NCBI RefSeq assembly: GCF_004765815.2
Contig: NZ_SBIS02000007.1
Coordinates: forward strand, 496,001 to 560,000
DNA length: 64,000 bases
Source: Halorussus salinus
GTDB lineage: Archaea; Halobacteriota; Halobacteria; Halobacteriales; Haladaptataceae
Direction of reading: 5' to 3'
Under the pieces are notes generated by a model that saw only the letters and a program-made list of their open reading frames with translations, was not told the DNA's origin and ran no database searches. A program made the position numbers and the translations under genes. This document shows, piece after piece, positions 55,300 through 63,682 of the stretch (position 1 is its first letter; each line of letters opens with the position of its first letter).

Positions 55300-56166
55300 T
55301 TACAGGCCACCCGAGCCGGGATCGTTTCCGACCACGATGTCGTGGGTGAGAGTCGAGCTTAGGCCGTACCCGTCGATACCGGTTTCGAGGTGGAGCGTAC
55401 CGGTTTCCAGATCGGTCGGAATGCCGAGACGAATATCCGTGAGATAGATAGTCGCAGCGTACGTTTGGTCTGTTTCATCGTACTCGGGTTCGTTGGGGTC
55501 CAGATGGGAGACCGTCGGGACCGTGTAGTCCCACCGGTACGTTTTCCCATCGTCTTCCGTGCCGAGGTCAAGGATGCTGTACGCGAGACTTGCGAGACTT
55601 ATAAGGGCACCGCCGTAGACCGTCGTCTTACCGAGTGCAAATTCACTGAGTCCGAGAAGCGTATCGCCGTAGTCGCTTGAATCCGTAATCTGTTCGGCGG
55701 TTTCGTCGATCTGGCTCTCGTCGCGCGCCGGGCCACTTAGTACTGTATCTGTATTGCCGTCTTGCCACGCTTGTAGGTCGGCACCGCCCTCTCCCGAGAG
55801 GGTAACACTTACTTCGGATATTTGTTGCGCCTGTTTGTCCTGCCAGAGTTGGTACGAGGACGTGAGCAGAATTTCGATGTCGAATTCATGAATTCGAATG
55901 TCGTCGCCAGGAGTCTCTTCAAAGTCGTTGTCGGTTTTCTCTGCAACAACTTGAATGCTAGAATCCACCGGCGCGTTCGCGGTGATATCTGGCGGATACG
56001 GGCAATTATCGGCATGGTAGGTGTCACCCTTCTCCCACCGTTCGCCGATGCTGGAGTAGTACGCGGAACCGAGACCAGTGGCCGACCGGAGACCGGCAAT
56101 CGTGGTCGCACCGACGCCAAAAGACTTGAGCACAGTTCGACGGTTACTACGGGATGGGTCTTCCAT
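55300..56166 (-). CDS. Tat-exported hypothetical protein
   Basis: A 288-residue protein. The N-terminus has the twin-arginine NRRTVLKSFGVGATTIAGL and no lipobox cysteine, so it is secreted in folded form. The mature part has no recognised family; segments such as HADNCPYPPDITANAPVD, a Ser/Gly-rich middle and beta-rich C-terminal half (ATIYLTDIRLGIPTDLETG) are visible. GC content is lower than its neighbours. Preceded by a very A+T-rich region (56180-56270). Confidence 0.65.
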   Translation of the reverse strand: MEDPSRSNRRTVLKSFGVGATTIAGLRSATGLGSAYYSSIGERWEKGDTYHADNCPYPPDITANAPVDSSIQVVAEKTDNDFEETPGDDIRIHEFDIEILLTSSYQLWQDKQAQQISEVSVTLSGEGGADLQAWQDGNTDTVLSGPARDESQIDETAEQITDSSDYGDTLLGLSEFALGKTTVYGGALISLASLAYSILDLGTEDDGKTYRWDYTVPTVSHLDPNEPEYDETDQTYAATIYLTDIRLGIPTDLETGTLHLETGIDGYGLSSTLTHDIVVGNDPGSGGL

Positions 56167-56291: not shown

Positions 56292-56297
56292 TTTAAA
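56292..56297 (+). promoter_or_regulatory. Putative TATA box of the argG leader transcript
   Basis: TTTAAA centred 28-29 bases before the ATG at 56323 of the Arg-rich leader ORF, leaving argG itself with about 235 bases of 5' RNA, unusual in haloarchaea where most promoters sit next to the first codon. Confidence 0.65.
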
Positions 56298-56322
56298 ACC
56301 CTCGGCGTTCTACGAAAGTGTG

Positions 56323-56418
56323 ATGACCGAAACTCGCGGACTGGGAGTGCGCGCCATTCCCCAGAGCCGCGAGTCTACCCTCGTTCTCGCGCCGCGACGA
56401 CGACCGGGGTCTCTCTAG
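56323..56418 (+). CDS. Arg-rich 31-residue leader ORF (argG leader)
   Basis: Reads MTETRGLGVRAIPQSREST followed by LVLAPRRRPGSL. Six of 31 residues are Arg, with three consecutive CGA codons (56395-56403). The ATG is ~25 bases after the TATA box, so it would be leaderless and translated first. The hairpin at 56406-56423 overlaps its stop. It has no other homology. This looks like a regulatory leader peptide in which ribosome position at the Arg codons would change the folding of the following RNA; existence as a protein is not proven. Confidence 0.6.
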   Translation: MTETRGLGVRAIPQSRESTLVLAPRRRPGSL

Positions 56419-56423
56419 ACCCC
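56406..56423 (+). promoter_or_regulatory. Hairpin overlapping the leader ORF stop
   Basis: GGGGTCT-CTCT-AGACCCC: perfect 7-base stem, 4-base loop. The stop codon is inside the 3' arm, and the three Arg codons end at the base before the 5' arm starts (two codons away). A ribosome stalled on the Arg codons would cover the 5' arm. The following pyrimidine stretch (ACTCTATCCTCATTCC) is only moderately T-rich. Confidence 0.6.
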
Positions 56424-56465
56424 ACTCTATCCTCATTCCACGACTTCACCGCGTTTGCCGCTGAC

Positions 56466-56483
56466 GACGACACTCGTGTCGTC
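56466..56483 (+). promoter_or_regulatory. Second perfect hairpin in the argG leader
   Basis: GACGACAC-TC-GTGTCGTC, an 8-base arm pair with 2 unpaired bases (7-base stem with tetraloop in practice), 72 bases before the argG ATG. Could be a terminator, antiterminator partner or protein-binding element. Confidence 0.5.
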
Positions 56484-56555: not shown

Positions 56556-57824
56556 ATGACAGAACAAACGAAAGTCGCGCTCGCCTTCTCGGGCGGACTC
56601 GACACCACAGTATGCGTCCCGCTGCTCGAAGAGGAGTACGAACACGACGAAGTAATCGGTGTCACCGTGGACGTGGGCCAACCGGCCGAGGAGTTCGACG
56701 AGGCCGAGGAGACCGCCGAAGCGTTGGACCTCGACCACTACGTCGTGGACGCCAAGGACGCCTTCGCCGAGCAGTGCCTCGACGCGGTGAAGGCCAACGC
56801 GACGTATCAGGGCTACCCACTCGGAACCGCACTCGCGCGTCCCGTCATCGCCGAGGCCATCCTCGACGTGGCCCAAGAGAACGACTGCGACGCCATCGCT
56901 CACGGCTGTACCGGCAAAGGCAACGACCAACTGCGCTTCGAGGCGGTCTGGCGCGAGTCCGACTTGGAGGTCATCGCGCCCGTCCGCGAACTCGGCCTGA
57001 CCCGCGAGTGGGAGATGGAGTACGCCGAGAAGAAAGACCTCCCCGTCGAGGGCGGCAACGAGGGCGACTGGTCCATCGACACGAACCTCTGGAGTCGCTC
57101 GGTCGAGGGCGACGACCTCGAAGACCCCGGCTACGTCCCGCCGGAGGACATCTACGAGTGGACCGACGCGCCCGGCCAGAAGGAGACCGAAGACGGCGAG
57201 TTCGAGACCATCGAAATCGCCTTCGAGGAGGGCACGCCGGTCGCAATCGACGGTGAGGAGCTACCCGCGGTCCAACTCATCGAGTACCTCAACGACCTCG
57301 CGGGGAGTTACGGCGTCGGCCGCACTGACATGATGGAAGACCGCATGCTCGGCCTGAAGGTCCGCGAGAACTACGAGCATCCCGCCGCGACGACGCTCCT
57401 GAACGCCCACGAAGCCCTCGAAGGACTCGTCCTGACCGAGGAGGAACGCGCCTTCAAGAAGCAGGTGGACCAGCAGTGGGCCGAGAAGGCTTACGAAGGA
57501 CTCCTGTCGGCACCGCTCGTGGACGCCCTCGACGGCTTCGTGGACACGACCCAACAGAAGGTCACGGGCACCGTCACCGTCAAGTTCGAGGGCGGGCAGG
57601 CCCGCCCGGTCGGCCGCGAGAGCGAGTACGCGGTCTACTCGGAGTCGGCCGCCTCGTTCAACACCGAGTCGGTGGACGGCATCGCCCAGTCCGACGCGAC
57701 CGGCGTGGCGAAGTACCACGGCTTCCAGTCCAGACTCGCCAACGAGGTCACCGCGAACGTCGAGGCGAAGAAGGCGGAACTCCTCGCCGACGGCGGCGAC
57801 GACGCGGAGACGGAGGAGCAGTAG
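56556..57824 (+). CDS. argG: Argininosuccinate synthase
   Basis: A 422-residue enzyme that joins citrulline and aspartate using ATP. ATP-site motif ALAFSGGLDTTVCV near residues 8-20; HGCTGKGNDQLRFE and DWSIDTNLWSRSVEG are also diagnostic. The C-terminus has a haloarchaeal acidic extension. Argininosuccinate goes to ArgH, whose gene starts two bases after the stop. Likely controlled through the long leader above. Confidence 0.97.
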   Translation: MTEQTKVALAFSGGLDTTVCVPLLEEEYEHDEVIGVTVDVGQPAEEFDEAEETAEALDLDHYVVDAKDAFAEQCLDAVKANATYQGYPLGTALARPVIAEAILDVAQENDCDAIAHGCTGKGNDQLRFEAVWRESDLEVIAPVRELGLTREWEMEYAEKKDLPVEGGNEGDWSIDTNLWSRSVEGDDLEDPGYVPPEDIYEWTDAPGQKETEDGEFETIEIAFEEGTPVAIDGEELPAVQLIEYLNDLAGSYGVGRTDMMEDRMLGLKVRENYEHPAATTLLNAHEALEGLVLTEEERAFKKQVDQQWAEKAYEGLLSAPLVDALDGFVDTTQQKVTGTVTVKFEGGQARPVGRESEYAVYSESAASFNTESVDGIAQSDATGVAKYHGFQSRLANEVTANVEAKKAELLADGGDDAETEEQ

Positions 57825-57825
57825 A

Positions 57826-59280
57826 ATGGCCGAGGAGGAACCCACCAGCGACGTGGTGCGCCGCGACCGCTTCAGCGGCGGCCCCGCCCGCGGGTTCCTC
57901 TCCTCGATGGCCGACGACGAGCGCATCTTCGCGGCCGACCTCGCTACCGACCGCGCCCACGTCGTGATGCTGGCCGAGCAGGGCATCGTGGACGACGAGG
58001 AAGCGACCGCCATCCTCTCGGCGCTCGACGGCGTGGAGCGGGCCGGATTCGACGCGCTCCCCGACGGCGAGGACGTTCACGCCGCCATCGAGACCGCGGT
58101 CATCGACCGCGTGGGCGACGTGGGCGGGAAGATGCACACCGCCCGCTCGCGCAACGACGAGGTGGCGACCTGCATCCGCTACCGCCTGCGCGAGGACGTG
58201 CTGGACGCGATAGAAGCGACCCTCGGGCTTCGCAAATCGCTCGCGGAGGTCGCCGCCGAGCATACGGAGACCGTGATGCCCGGCTACACGCACCTCCAGC
58301 CCGCACAGCCGACCACCGTGGGCCACTACCTGCTCTCCTACGAGCAGGCGGTCGCCCGCGACACCGGCAGACTCTTCGACGCCTACGCTCGCGTCAACCG
58401 CTCGCCCCTCGGCGCGGCCGCGTTCGCGGGCACGCCCTTCGACGTAGATAGGGAGCGCACCGCGGAACTACTCGGTTTCGACGGACTGGTCGCCAACTCG
58501 ATGGACGCGGTTTCGACCCGCGACTTCCTCGTGGAGGTCGTCGCCGCGCTTGCCAACCTCGCCACGACGGTTTCGGGACTGGCGGAAGACCTCGTGGTGT
58601 TCTCGAACAAGGGGCTGGTGGAACTGTCGGACGACTACTCGTCCACGTCGTCCATCATGCCCCAGAAGAAGAACCCCGACACGCTCGAACTCGTCCGCGC
58701 GACCGCGGGCGACGCCGCGGCGGGACTGAACGGTCTCCTCACGACGCTGAAGGGCCTGCCCCGCGCGTACAACCGCGACTTGCAGAACGCCACTCCTCAC
58801 GCGTGGGAGACCGTCGATGCCGTGAGCGAAGCGGTCGCGGTCGCGGCCGGAGCGGTCGGGACCGCGACGTGGGACGACGACGCGCTCGCCGAGGAGGCGG
58901 GCGAGGGATTCTCGACCGCGACCGGCGTGGCCGACCTGTTGGCGATGGCCGGGGTTCCCTTCCGGAAAGCGCACGAACTGGTCGCCGAAGCTTCCGAGAA
59001 GGGGACCGACTACGACGCCCTCGACGCGGCCGCCGAGGAGGTACTGGACTCGCCGCTGTCGGCCTACGTCGAGCGCGAGGCGGTCGAGGACGCGCTCGAC
59101 CCCGCCGCGAGCGCGGCGTCGCGCGACTCCGCGGGCGGTCCCGCGCCCGAGTCGGTCGCCGCGGGCCTGACTGCGGTCGAGGAGACCGCCGCGGCCGACG
59201 AGGCGGCGCTGGCCGACGCCCGCGAGTCGCTGGCGGAAGCCGCCGACCTCCTCTCGACGGAGGTGAGTAGTCGTGCCTGA
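57826..59280 (+). CDS. argH: Argininosuccinate lyase
   Basis: A 484-residue lyase that releases arginine and fumarate. Signature SSIMPQKKNPD in the fumarase/aspartase superfamily loop, with GGKMHTARSRNDEVAT, GYTHLQPAQPTTVGHYLLSY and FSNKGLVELSDDYSSTSS around it. One base after argG. The C-terminal ~80 residues are Ala/Asp-rich, as in other haloarchaea. Confidence 0.97.
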   Translation: MAEEEPTSDVVRRDRFSGGPARGFLSSMADDERIFAADLATDRAHVVMLAEQGIVDDEEATAILSALDGVERAGFDALPDGEDVHAAIETAVIDRVGDVGGKMHTARSRNDEVATCIRYRLREDVLDAIEATLGLRKSLAEVAAEHTETVMPGYTHLQPAQPTTVGHYLLSYEQAVARDTGRLFDAYARVNRSPLGAAAFAGTPFDVDRERTAELLGFDGLVANSMDAVSTRDFLVEVVAALANLATTVSGLAEDLVVFSNKGLVELSDDYSSTSSIMPQKKNPDTLELVRATAGDAAAGLNGLLTTLKGLPRAYNRDLQNATPHAWETVDAVSEAVAVAAGAVGTATWDDDALAEEAGEGFSTATGVADLLAMAGVPFRKAHELVAEASEKGTDYDALDAAAEEVLDSPLSAYVEREAVEDALDPAASAASRDSAGGPAPESVAAGLTAVEETAAADEAALADARESLAEAADLLSTEVSSRA

Positions 59281-59352
59281 CCCGCGACCGGTCCCCTCCG
59301 GGACCATATTTATAAACTACCGAAGTCCGAAGCCGGATTTCGTTTGACGCGG

Positions 59353-59365
59353 ATTTTGCCTTTTT
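59353..59365 (+). terminator. T-rich tract between argGH and argW
   Basis: TTTTGCCTTTTTG about 80 bases after argH, followed by a separate promoter for argW. Likely the end of the argGH transcript. Confidence 0.45.
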
Positions 59366-59417
59366 GCGCCCTTAGAGCCGACTTTGCGCGATGAAAATAT
59401 ATTGACACGTTCGATGG

Positions 59418-59423
59418 TTTTAA
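59418..59423 (+). promoter_or_regulatory. Putative TATA box of argW operon
   Basis: TTTTAA centred about 31 bases before the argW ATG at 59452. The argW-argX-argC-argB-argD-argE genes are tightly packed from here, with start/stop gaps of 0-4 bases. Confidence 0.5.
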
Positions 59424-59451
59424 GTGGTACTGCGGAATACAATGGATTGCT

Positions 59452-59616
59452 ATGACCGAATGCGTCGAGTGCGGGGCGGACGTGACCCTGCACGAGAATG
59501 CGGAAGTAGGAGAGATACTCGACTGCACGACCTGCGGCGCGGAACTGGAACTCGTCGAGCGGAACCCGCCAGTCCTCCAGCGAGCCCCGGAGCTCGAAGA
59601 GGACTGGGGGGAGTAA
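59452..59616 (+). CDS. lysW: LysW/ArgW amino-group carrier protein
   Basis: A 54-residue carrier with two CxxC zinc ligands (CVECG and CTTCG) and the conserved C-terminal acidic EEDWGE. Glutamate is attached to the gamma-carboxyl of the last Glu so that intermediates in ornithine (and in some species lysine) synthesis remain bound through the pathway. The last residue is Glu as required. argX begins one base after the stop. Confidence 0.95.
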   Translation: MTECVECGADVTLHENAEVGEILDCTTCGAELELVERNPPVLQRAPELEEDWGE

Positions 59617-59617
59617 G

Positions 59618-60502
59618 TTGCAGGTCGGACTCCTCTACTCCCGGATTCGGAAAGACGAGAAGCTCCTGCTCTCCGAACTCCGCGAGCGCGGCCACGACGT
59701 AGTGAAAATCGACGTGCGGGATCTGCAGTTCGGGCTGACCGAAGCCCCCGAAATCTTCGCGGACCTCGACGTGGTGGTGGACCGTTGTCTCGCCACGAGC
59801 CGGAGCCTCTACGCCACGAAGTTCTGCGAGGCGTACGGCGTTCCCGTGGTCAACTCCGCGGAGACCGCCCAAATCTGCGCCGACAAGGTGCAAAACTCCC
59901 TCGCGCTCGCCGGGGCTGGCGTGCCCACGCCCGCGACCGACGTGGCGTTCACCAAGGAAGCCGCGATGGAGAGCATCGAAAAGTTCGGTTACCCCTGCGT
60001 CCTCAAGCCCGTCGTCGGGTCGTGGGGTCGCCTGATGGCGAAAATCGACTCCAAGAGCGCCGCCGAAGCGATTCTCGAACACAAGGCCACGCTCGGCCAC
60101 TACGAACACAAAGTGTTCTACGTCCAACAGTTCGTGGACAAGCCCGGCCGCGATATTCGCGTGCTGGCCGCCGACGGCGAACCGGTCGCCGCGATGGTGC
60201 GCTCGTCGGACCACTGGCTCACGAACGCCGCGAAAGGTGCCGAGACCGAGCAGTTCGAGTTGGACGACGAGGCGAAAGACCTCGTCCAGCGGGCCAGCGA
60301 CGCCGTGGGCGGTGGTCTTCTGGGCGTCGACCTGATGGAGACCAGCGGTGAGAGCGAGGAGAACTACACCGTCCACGAGGTCAACCACACCGTCGAGTTC
60401 AAGGCGCTGAACGACGCCACCGACGCGGACGTGCCCGCGACGGTGGTCGATTGGCTCGAAGCGACGGCCGCGGCGGCGACGAAACAGGAGGTGGTCGCCT
60501 GA
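59618..60502 (+). CDS. argX: Glutamate--LysW ligase ArgX
   Basis: A 294-residue ATP-grasp (RimK/LysX-like) enzyme that attaches glutamate to the C-terminus of ArgW/LysW. TTG start at 59618 (MQVGLLYSRIRKDEKLLL); no better start is available. ATP-grasp pattern: DVAFTKEAAMESIEKFGYPC, VVGSWGRLMAKIDSK and FVDKPGRDIRVLAADG, then EVNHTVEFKALND. Overlaps argC by one base. Confidence 0.95.
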   Translation: MQVGLLYSRIRKDEKLLLSELRERGHDVVKIDVRDLQFGLTEAPEIFADLDVVVDRCLATSRSLYATKFCEAYGVPVVNSAETAQICADKVQNSLALAGAGVPTPATDVAFTKEAAMESIEKFGYPCVLKPVVGSWGRLMAKIDSKSAAEAILEHKATLGHYEHKVFYVQQFVDKPGRDIRVLAADGEPVAAMVRSSDHWLTNAAKGAETEQFELDDEAKDLVQRASDAVGGGLLGVDLMETSGESEENYTVHEVNHTVEFKALNDATDADVPATVVDWLEATAAAATKQEVVA

Positions 60503-61575
60503 TGGCCGCCGAAGTGGAACCGAAAAACGCGACGAGCGAAACCCTCACCGCCACCGTCGTCGGCGGGAGCGGCTTCGCTGGCGGCGAACTCCTGCGCCTG
60601 CTGGCGGGCCACCCCAACTTCGACCTCGCGGGCGCGACCAGCCGCGAGTACGCGGGCAAGTCGGTCGGCTCGGTCCACCCGAACCTGCGCGGGACCGATC
60701 TGCGCTTCTCGGACCCCGCGGACCTCGACTCGGTGGACGTGCTGTTCGCGGCGACGCCCCACGGCGTCTCGATGGCACAGATAGACGACTTCTACGAGGC
60801 GGCCGACACCGTTGTGGACCTGAGCGCGGACTTCCGGCTGAACACGCAAGCCCAGTACGACGAGTGGTACGACGGCCACGACGCGTCCGAGTATCTGGAC
60901 GAAGCGGTCTACGCCCTGCCGGAACTCCACCGCGAGGAGCTTCCCGGTTCCAGCCTCGTCGCGGCTGGCGGCTGTAACGCCACTGCCACGATTCTGGGAC
61001 TGTATCCCCTGTTCGACGGCGGCCTCCTCTCGGGCGACGAGCAAATCGTCGCCGACGTAAAAGTCGGTTCTTCGGAGGGTGGCGCGACCGCCAGCAAGGC
61101 CGGAAGCCACGCCGAGCGTTCGGGCGTCGTCAGACCCTACGCGCCGACCGGCCACCGCCACGAGGCCGAAATCGAGCAGGAACTGGGCGCGTCGGTCTCG
61201 TTCTCGGCCCACGCGGTGGACATGGTTCGGGGCGCGGCCGCGACCTGCCACGTTTTTCCGGACGGCCCGGTCTCGAAGGGCGACCTCTGGTCGGCCTTCC
61301 GCGGGGCCTACGACGACGAACCGTTCGTCCGCCTCCAGTCGGGCGGGTCGGGCGTGTATCGCTACCCCGAACCGAAGGCCGTGGCGGGCACGAACTACGC
61401 CGAGGTCGGGTTCGAGTTGGACCCGAGCAACGAGCGCATCGTGGTCTTCAGCGCCATCGACAATCTGGTGAAGGGCACGGCCGGACAGGCGGTCCACGCC
61501 GCCAACCTCGCGCTCGGCTTCGAGGAGACCGCGGGACTCGACTTTCAGGGACTGCACCCGGTGGGAAGCCCATGA
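60502..61575 (+). CDS. argC: LysW-gamma-L-glutamyl-phosphate reductase ArgC
   Basis: A 357-residue NADPH-dependent reductase. NADP fold start ATVVGGSGFAGGELLRLL, catalytic cysteine in AAGGCNATATILGLYPL, and the conserved HRHEAEIEQELG. It reduces the ArgW-bound acyl phosphate to the semialdehyde. N-terminal polar extension of about 16 residues precedes the fold. Overlaps argX by one base and argB by four. Confidence 0.96.
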   Translation: MAAEVEPKNATSETLTATVVGGSGFAGGELLRLLAGHPNFDLAGATSREYAGKSVGSVHPNLRGTDLRFSDPADLDSVDVLFAATPHGVSMAQIDDFYEAADTVVDLSADFRLNTQAQYDEWYDGHDASEYLDEAVYALPELHREELPGSSLVAAGGCNATATILGLYPLFDGGLLSGDEQIVADVKVGSSEGGATASKAGSHAERSGVVRPYAPTGHRHEAEIEQELGASVSFSAHAVDMVRGAAATCHVFPDGPVSKGDLWSAFRGAYDDEPFVRLQSGGSGVYRYPEPKAVAGTNYAEVGFELDPSNERIVVFSAIDNLVKGTAGQAVHAANLALGFEETAGLDFQGLHPVGSP

Positions 61576-62546
61576 CCGAGAACGGAGACGCGTACACCAC
61601 GGCGGAACTCGAAGCGGCCCACGAACAGCTCATCGACAACGACCTCGGCGACGACGGCCTCCGGACCGACGGGGGAATCGCCGGGGAAGAAGACCAGAGC
61701 GCGCCCATCGTCGTCAAAATCGGCGGCGCGCGCGCCGTCGAACCCGAGGGTGCGCTCGCGGACATCGCGCACCTCGTCGCCAATGGCGAGGAGGTCGTGG
61801 TCGTCCACGGCGGTTCGACCGCGGTGGACGAGACGCTCGAACAACTGGGCGAGGAGCCCGAGTACGTCGAGACGCCCGGCGGCGTCGTCGGGCGCTTCAC
61901 CGACGAGACGACGATGGAGGTCTTCGAGATGGTCCTGCCCGGCAAGCTCAACACCGACCTCGTAGCGGGGTTGCAGAATCAGGGCGTGAACGCGGTCGGA
62001 CTCTCGGGAACCGACGGCAAGCTTCTGACCGGCCCGCGCAAGTCGGCGGTCAAGGTCCTCGAAGACGGTCGCAAGAAGATAAAGCGCGGCGACCACTCGG
62101 GCAAAATCGAGGCGGTCAACGACGACCTCCTCGGGACCCTGCTCGCTGGGAGCTACGTCCCGGTCGTCACGGTGCCGATGCTCGCGGAAGAGAGCAACGA
62201 GGGGACTGGGACCGAGTACACTCCCGTCAACGCCGACGCCGACCGCGCGGCCGCCGCGATTGCGGGCGCGTTGGGCGGCGAGTTGGTCGTCCTGACCGAC
62301 GTGACGGGCGTCTACGAGGACCCCGAGGATTCGGACTCGCTCATCGAATCGGTCGGGACCCCCGAGGAGTTAGACGCCGCCGAGGAGGCCGCGGAGGGGT
62401 TCATGACCAAGAAGGTCATGGCGGCGGTCGAGGCGCTGGAGGGCGGCGCGGCCTCGGTGACGGTCGCGGACGCGAACAACCGCGACCCCATCACCGCGGC
62501 CCGGACCGGCCACGGGACGACCTTCGAACCGGAGGCGGTGAGGTAA
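61572..62546 (+). CDS. argB: LysW-gamma-L-glutamate kinase ArgB
   Basis: A 324-residue amino-acid-kinase-fold enzyme that phosphorylates the ArgW-bound glutamate. Phosphate-site motif VVKIGGARAVEPEG is near residue 46, with VVVHGGSTAVDETLEQLG and the late VTVADANNRDPI. A 40-residue acidic N-terminal tail is haloarchaea-specific. Overlaps argC (ATGA) and argD (TAATG). Confidence 0.96.
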   Translation: MTENGDAYTTAELEAAHEQLIDNDLGDDGLRTDGGIAGEEDQSAPIVVKIGGARAVEPEGALADIAHLVANGEEVVVVHGGSTAVDETLEQLGEEPEYVETPGGVVGRFTDETTMEVFEMVLPGKLNTDLVAGLQNQGVNAVGLSGTDGKLLTGPRKSAVKVLEDGRKKIKRGDHSGKIEAVNDDLLGTLLAGSYVPVVTVPMLAEESNEGTGTEYTPVNADADRAAAAIAGALGGELVVLTDVTGVYEDPEDSDSLIESVGTPEELDAAEEAAEGFMTKKVMAAVEALEGGAASVTVADANNRDPITAARTGHGTTFEPEAVR

Positions 62547-63682
62547 TGTCGGGGTTCGTCTACTCCGAGAAACCCATCCAAATAGAGTCGGGCGAGGACG
62601 TGTATCTCTACGACGACTCGGGCGACGAGTATCTGGACTTCGGCGCGAGCTACGGCGTCGCCGCGGTCGGCCACTGCCACCCCGAGGTCGTCTCGGCAGT
62701 CCAGTCGCAGGTCGAGAAACTGACCTTCGTGCAGGCCAGCTACCCCAACTCGGCCCGCGACGCGCTCTACGAGAAGTTAGCCGCGGTCGCGCCCGGCGAC
62801 GTGGAGAACGTCTGGCTCTGCAACTCCGGGACCGAGGCCAACGAGGCGGCGCTCAAGTTCGCCCGGAGTGCAACCGGCAACTCCAAAATCGTCGCGGCCC
62901 AGCGCGGCTTCCACGGCCGGACGATGGGGTCGCTCTCGGCGACGTGGAAACCGAAGTACAAGAAGCCCTTCGAGCCGCTTGCGGGCGATTTCGAGTTCGT
63001 CCCCTACGGCGACGACGAGGCCTTGAGCGAAGCGGTGGACGACGAGACGGCCGCGGTCCTGCTGGAACCGATTCAGGGCGAGGGCGGCGTCAATCCCGCG
63101 CCCGAGGGCTACCTCCAAACCGCCCGCGAGGTGACCGAGGAGACCGGTTCGGCCCTGATTCTGGACGAGATTCAGACCGGCTTGGGTAGAACAGGCGCGC
63201 TCTGGGCCTGCGAGAAGCGCGGCGTCGTGCCCGACGTACTCACGTCGGCGAAGGGGTTGGGCGGCGGCCTCCCCGTCGGCGCGACGCTCTGTGCCGACTG
63301 GGTAGCCGAGGAGTCCGGGCCTCACGGCTCGACGTTCTCTGGCGGCCCGGTCGTCAGCGCGGCCGCCGACGCGACGCTCTCGGTCGTCGCCGACGAGAAT
63401 CTGGCCGAAAACGCCGCGCAGGTCGGCGACTATCTCCAGTCGAAACTGAGGGGTTCCGAGCTGCCGATTCGCACGGTCCGCGGCGAGGGCCTCATGCTCG
63501 GCGCGGAGGTCGGCCGCGGCGCGAACCGCGCCCTGAAGCAACTGGCGATGAACCACGGAATTCTGGCGCTCCCCGCCGGTCGGACCGTGGTGCGCCTGCT
63601 CCCGCCGCTGACGGTCACGGAGTCGCACGCCGACGAGGTGGTCGCCGCGCTCGAAACGATTCTCGCGGGGGCCGAGACGTGA
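62546..63682 (+). CDS. argD: LysW-gamma-L-glutamate-semialdehyde aminotransferase ArgD
   Basis: A 378-residue class III PLP aminotransferase, transferring amino groups to form ArgW-bound ornithine. PLP lysine in VLTSAKGLGGGLPVGA, aromatic/Asp contacts in LILDEIQTGLGRTGAL. N-terminus MSGFVYSEKPIQIESG. Overlaps argE's start. Note that a partial class III aminotransferase is also at the left edge of the window. Confidence 0.96.
   Translation: MSGFVYSEKPIQIESGEDVYLYDDSGDEYLDFGASYGVAAVGHCHPEVVSAVQSQVEKLTFVQASYPNSARDALYEKLAAVAPGDVENVWLCNSGTEANEAALKFARSATGNSKIVAAQRGFHGRTMGSLSATWKPKYKKPFEPLAGDFEFVPYGDDEALSEAVDDETAAVLLEPIQGEGGVNPAPEGYLQTAREVTEETGSALILDEIQTGLGRTGALWACEKRGVVPDVLTSAKGLGGGLPVGATLCADWVAEESGPHGSTFSGGPVVSAAADATLSVVADENLAENAAQVGDYLQSKLRGSELPIRTVRGEGLMLGAEVGRGANRALKQLAMNHGILALPAGRTVVRLLPPLTVTESHADEVVAALETILAGAET

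Follow-up and report, generated by a model that had tools for sequence, protein, structure and literature searches.

Does the arginine-rich open reading frame (ORF) ahead of argG in Halorussus salinus sense arginine on behalf of the operon that follows it? The window, the whole 64,000-nucleotide stretch of DNA analysed here, is part of the 4.75 Mb genome of this species. A first-pass annotation had placed a TATA box, an ATG, a short ORF with an Arg run and two hairpins in front of argG, and had proposed that progress of the ribosome through the Arg codons controls argG. All of these coordinates check in the sequence (Table 1), and the proposal itself gains support from the conserved ORF, the Arg run and the covarying hairpin, as far as sequence comparison can speak to it. 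A divergent gene on the minus strand (window 55300-56166) encodes 288 aa with a Tat-like signal, RRTVLKSFGVGATT; its protein has no NCBIfam match.

Table 1. Elements of the argG leader and the arginine cluster in the window.
Feature	Position	Strand	Description	Basis
TATA box TTTAAA	56292..56297	+	leader promoter	sequence; TATA-ATG spacing 29-34 nt in 119 loci
Leaderless leader ORF	56323..56418	+	31 codons and TAG (56416-56418), end APRRRPGSL	sequence, conservation, frame, indels
Hairpin I within ORF	56332..56374	+	arms ACTCGCGG (56332-56339) and CCGCGAGT (56367-56374)	fold, compensatory changes
Arg run CGA CGA CGA	56395..56403	+	presumed sensing codons	codon bias
Hairpin II (GGGGTCT-CTCT-AGACCCC)	56406..56423	+	presumed attenuator hairpin of 7 bp (loop CTCT), its 3' arm overlapping the ORF stop	sequence, local fold, compensatory stem changes
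G-free tract	56424..56441	+	directly 3' of hairpin II	base composition, RNA:DNA hybrid calculation
Second perfect hairpin GACGACAC-TC-GTGTCGTC	56466..56483	+	genus-level only	sequence
argG, argininosuccinate synthase	56556..57824	+	operon gene 1; start codon ATG at 56556	NCBIfam NF010392, TIGR00032 over cut-off
argH, argW (lysW), argX, argC, argB, argD	57826..63682	+	remaining arginine cluster in window	NCBIfam

A leaderless ORF with an arginine run of biased codon choice

The position of the TATA box puts the transcription start at, or within a few nucleotides of, the leader ATG, from which the ORF translates as MTETRGLGVRAIPQSRESTLVLAPRRRPGSL with six Arg residues. For comparison, 124 distinct upstream regions, duplicates removed, were assembled from the argG loci of 18 Halorussus, 10 more family members, 80 named records of haloarchaea and additional members of the class; one large genus (g8) and other archaeal classes were left out. 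Because loci were picked by argG similarity, they sample the lineages unevenly, and those of related species are not independent of one another. A scan of these regions for a TATA box followed after 29-34 nt by an ATG, with an ORF holding at least three Arg in six codons, was positive in 118 of the 124, compared with 17 of 1680 genes of one Halorussus chromosome and 14 of 620 dinucleotide-shuffled regions. The short ORF with an Arg run before a hairpin, whose conservation in related haloarchaea the first-pass annotation had named as support, is thus found at nearly every argG locus sampled; G048, a divergent member of the class, is without a leader upstream of argG. ORF lengths range from 21 to 57 codons and are mostly 25-31, and the peptide ends include RRRPGSL, RRRPGLF, RRRRPAL, RRPRPGL, RRRRPGR and RRRAL.

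The reading frame carries the coding signal. Of 113 loci, 111 have the ATG that is set by the TATA box alone, without regard to arginine, in the same frame as the CGN run, and all 113 are open from that ATG to the hairpin. Aligned Halorussus leaders show only 3-nt gaps within the ORF (34 of 34), and past the stop codon gaps of 1, 2, 3 and 4 nt occur. The frame together with the 3-nt indel pattern forms a strong coding signature, so the leader ORF is presumably coding, and by this comparison an arginine leader peptide with attenuator parts is real and conserved class-wide in haloarchaea. In the leaders of L084, L093 and L105 the Arg run and the hairpin are kept, but the ORF reads across the hairpin in a different frame and stops some 22 codons further on; these are either real variants with the stop outside the hairpin or sequence errors.

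Codon choice in the run differs sharply from that in the operon. Arg in the nine codons before the hairpin is encoded by CGA at 75.5%, CGG at 21.3% and CGC at 1.9% (470 codons); Arg in argG of the same loci is 2.0% CGA and 75.5% CGC (1680 codons). The codon directly before the hairpin is Arg in 111/111 loci, all of which had been selected for an Arg-rich run. When all run codons were swapped in silico to CGC, the mean predicted probability of hairpin II fell only from 0.90 to 0.85, and hairpin II is therefore not the reason for the CGA bias. Genes for tRNA-Arg with anticodons UCG, CCG, GCG and CCU are present once each in the 87% of one Halorussus chromosome that was covered. The bias points to decoding as the sensed step, and the run may be tuned to a sensitive isoacceptor. 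The minimum-energy fold of window positions 56381-56403 also pairs TCGTT..CGCG with the Arg codons (CGCGACGACGA) as a third leader hairpin, which a translating ribosome would open and which is not clearly kept beyond some lineages.

Hairpin II, the G-free tract and other leader structures

The hairpin that encloses the stop codon is conserved across haloarchaea. In 115 ORFs picked without reference to it, a 27-nt stretch around the stop has a mean fold z of -2.38, and 93% fall below -1; in the window, the sequence from the leader ATG to 56440 has a fold z of -3.3. The stems differ by lineage (GGGGTC/GACCCC, GGGGCT/AGCCCC and AGTCCC, GGGCC/GGCCC, GGCCC/GGGCC, GGGCTC/GAGCCC), and the differences are compensating changes, so that the compensatory base changes which the first reading of the locus had named as support behind the Arg run are indeed seen between haloarchaeal lineages. 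Pair 3 is G-C in 95 and C-G in 14 loci and pair 4 is C-G in 79 and G-C in 27, where full pairing at pairs 1-4 was demanded by the search and holds by construction, whereas the variety of pairs does not. By ribosome geometry, a ribosome halted at the last Arg codon would cover the 5' arm of this hairpin.

Directly behind hairpin II the transcript is nearly devoid of G (about 3% at +2 to +18, compared with 17% for the spacer overall and 33% for the first part of argG). By nearest-neighbour values, the 9-nt RNA:DNA hybrid is weakest, at about -9.3 kcal/mol, with its 3' end 8-14 nt beyond hairpin II, compared with -12.96 kcal/mol in argG and -10.95 kcal/mol in the rest of the spacer. Judged from base composition and these energies, the arrangement is that of release driven by a hairpin, with the G-free tract standing where a U-run would be, and release of the transcript is predicted at about 56431-56437. 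The spacer contains no U-run, its longest T run being 2-5, in agreement with the earlier remark that neither hairpin is followed by a strong T-run, and an intrinsic U-run terminator was rejected for this reason. Termination reached 95% at a T stretch and 59% at one hairpin assayed in Haloferax volcanii (PMC7237163). T stretches being the efficient terminator of haloarchaea, the lack of one here counts against a terminating leader, and the activity of that hairpin counts in its favour.

Within the ORF of 16 Halorussus leaders, hairpin I is a 10-pair helix joining codons 3-6 with codons of about 15-19; 88.8% of its cells are paired, versus 25-43% when the arms are slid, and five pairs are altered on both sides. 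Across the class, the body of the ORF has a slightly stronger fold than its shuffled versions (mean z -1.18). By analogy with bacterial leaders, we would guess that hairpin I serves polymerase pausing. The second hairpin reported by the first-pass annotation is present in the window, yet perfect copies occur in just a few species of Halorussus, and it was rejected as a general element because it is a genus-level feature. A search for pairing between the Arg run and the spacer, as an antiterminator would need, gave none that holds across the class. A candidate antiterminator partner in Halorussus, GTATCGTCCGCGAACT, was rejected as it does not covary with the leader; this block lies about 50 nt past the stop hairpin (for example in L028, L030 and L034) and is kept more strictly within the genus than the hairpin of which it is part in the window.

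Promoters before argG bear on how far the leader can govern the operon. A transcription start downstream of 56423 would speak against the leader as a switch, as was recognized at the outset; no promoter-like TATA lies between hairpin II and argG in any Halorussus examined, and in this genus, by sequence, no promoter but that of the leader is seen ahead of the operon. A second TATA sits directly before argG, at a leaderless or near-leaderless distance, in at least 66 of 111 loci (Natrialbaceae and Haladaptatus among them), and the leader is therefore not the sole control in those lineages. Upstream of the second TATA, loci L063, L081, L101, L103, L118 and L127 carry a conserved block TATAGGCATCTCT or GGTTAGCAGCCGCTCT followed by TTTAATTTC, which may belong to a second, regulated promoter or terminate the leader RNA.

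A proposed ribosome-position switch and its alternatives

The ORF, its frame, the run and its bias, the hairpins, the tract and the link to the operon come from comparative sequence, and from them we infer stalling, hairpin switching and termination in the following order. Transcription would start at or adjoining the leader ATG, where leaderless translation begins. Under a shortage of charged tRNA-Arg for CGA, the ribosome would pause in the CGA run, its footprint covering the 5' arm of hairpin II about 2 nt further on, and with hairpin II masked RNA polymerase would read on into argG. With ample arginine, the ribosome would reach the stop codon inside hairpin II and leave, allowing hairpin II to form, and the polymerase, over a G-free weak hybrid, would most likely stop or be released about 8-14 nt downstream. 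That the leader senses arginine through ribosome stalling is very probable. We also lean towards the leader being an arginine-sensing, ribosome-position attenuator of the arg operon, and, with the same modest preference, towards transcription as the controlled step. The fullest reading, a class-wide archaeal ribosome-mediated transcription attenuator in which the stop-enclosing hairpin and the G-free weak-hybrid tract, and no U-run, act as a conditional terminator that is turned off by ribosome stalling at the rare CGA codons, may be right or wrong with about equal chance.

The strongest competitor, which we regard as unlikely but worth serious weight, keeps the sensing by Arg codons and moves its effect to translation or mRNA stability, such that the position of the ribosome sets mRNA cutting or protection at hairpin II, or the delivery of ribosomes to argG. 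The missing U-run is in its favour, and delivery could matter given that argG lacks a Shine-Dalgarno sequence in nearly all loci (a similar sequence precedes it in 5 of 111) behind an unstructured, G-poor spacer. That same spacer, unfolded class-wide (z +0.16), nevertheless holds no conserved structure hiding the argG start, its length from hairpin to argG varies from about 70 to 170 nt, and a translational model has no need of a weak-hybrid tract placed exactly behind the hairpin.

The remaining alternatives dispense with codon sensing, and the synonymous CGA bias counts against each of them. For an arrest peptide with free arginine bound inside the tunnel of the ribosome, as in the fungal arginine attenuator peptide, making the peptide and not the codons the sensor, such a bias would be irrelevant; the RRRPG end does recur across many lineages, but there is little peptide likeness beyond the Arg run, and PGL, PAL and AL are the hairpin arm in different frames. 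The RPG motif was accordingly rejected as an arrest signal, being explained by the hairpin arm read in frame, and we hold this explanation to be highly improbable. We think equally little of a stand-alone small basic protein or sRNA beside argG with the hairpin as its own terminator: the frequent second TATA would permit independent transcription of argG, but Halorussus and others show the leader promoter alone before the operon, the peptide sequence is not conserved, and the CGA bias would be without reason. Least credible of all is a DNA operator for an arginine repressor, formed by the dyad and repeats around an incidental ORF. Hairpin II is also a perfect DNA dyad, yet its stem changes by compensating pairs while the fold stays, and an operator would leave unexplained both the bias and the retention of a frame with a TATA-placed ATG.

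Known systems and distribution of the leader

Leader-peptide attenuation is a textbook bacterial mechanism. Like the trp, his and leu attenuators of bacteria, the argG leader is a short ORF rich in the product amino acid before a biosynthetic operon, with RNA hairpins whose folding is presumably set by ribosome position; unlike them, it is archaeal and leaderless, encloses its stop codon in a hairpin, and has a G-free tract instead of a U-run and a conserved antiterminator. Since both the U-run after the terminator hairpin and the exclusive antiterminator pairing of the trp type are absent, the leader would work like a trp-type attenuator and is not classed as one. In the pyrBI and ampC attenuators of E. 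coli the ribosome on the leader directly occludes the hairpin without a separate antiterminator, as is presumed here, though those systems have U-run terminators and other signals. The fungal arginine attenuator peptide (arg-2/CPA1) is a conserved upstream arrest peptide that senses free arginine. It too precedes an arginine gene, but the argG leader conserves only the Arg run, beyond which its ends differ with the hairpin, and codon choice seems to matter.

The nearest analogue, by likeness of design, is the leaderless cysteine-rich uORF of mycobacteria, proposed as an attenuator (Shell et al. 2015, PMC4633059). Both have a leaderless ORF conserved in relatives, presumed sensing codons at its C-terminal end and genes for the same amino acid downstream; the mycobacterial uORFs are bacterial, concern cysteine and have other RNA structures, whereas the argG leader concerns arginine, has a stop-enclosing hairpin and spans a whole archaeal class, and so is neither of the cysteine nor of the actinobacterial type. 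No archaeal leader-peptide attenuator was found in the open literature, consistent with the first-pass annotation, which knew of no archaeal arginine attenuator of such design; most subscription journals lie outside that literature, and a description there is possible. If the transcriptional reading is correct, this would be, in the literature searchable, the first ribosome-mediated transcription attenuator described outside bacteria and the first control mechanism proposed for the haloarchaeal arginine operon. Coupled transcription and translation would then serve archaea as an amino-acid sensor, and the leader would offer a natural switchable element for the study of how archaeal RNA polymerase stops without a U-run. 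Because the leader occurs in Haloferax species, an established laboratory genus is at hand for testing it.

R1, a covariance model of the leader built from haloarchaea, ranks the argG leader first in its own genome (E 1e-7; next site 0.14). Compared by position, its sites at E < 0.03 adjoin argG in 16 of the 24 genomes of haloarchaea, and three more such sites are weaker. None of its matches in other classes adjoins argG among those compared by position, and, as R1 was trained on haloarchaea, diverged leaders may exist elsewhere. A search of the leader against the Rfam covariance models matched no family, and plasmid records gave no leader match above 60% identity and none from haloarchaea among the matches listed.

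In Haloferax volcanii, 16 genes with uORFs in long 5'-UTRs have been described, among them pheS and a tryptophan--tRNA ligase gene; argG is not one of the 16, the peptides all have a low isoelectric point, and an attenuation mechanism is not mentioned (Babski et al. 2016, PMC4983044). A scan for sister leaders in 2.6 Mb of Halorussus chromosome returned one Phe-rich candidate, before pheS: a TATA-preceded 27-codon ORF, MSSESRVGGTVRQSRHPRAGFGFFFAV, on the plus strand at L232:5650-5733 (G010:C1:1385650), 164 nt before the likely pheS gene. It is a possible phenylalanine leader, on the evidence of its sequence and place. The exact motif does not occur in any of 59 further haloarchaeal genomes, although most Halorussus align over this region, and pheS of Haloferax volcanii is preceded by a uORF of 26 aa (PMC4983044).
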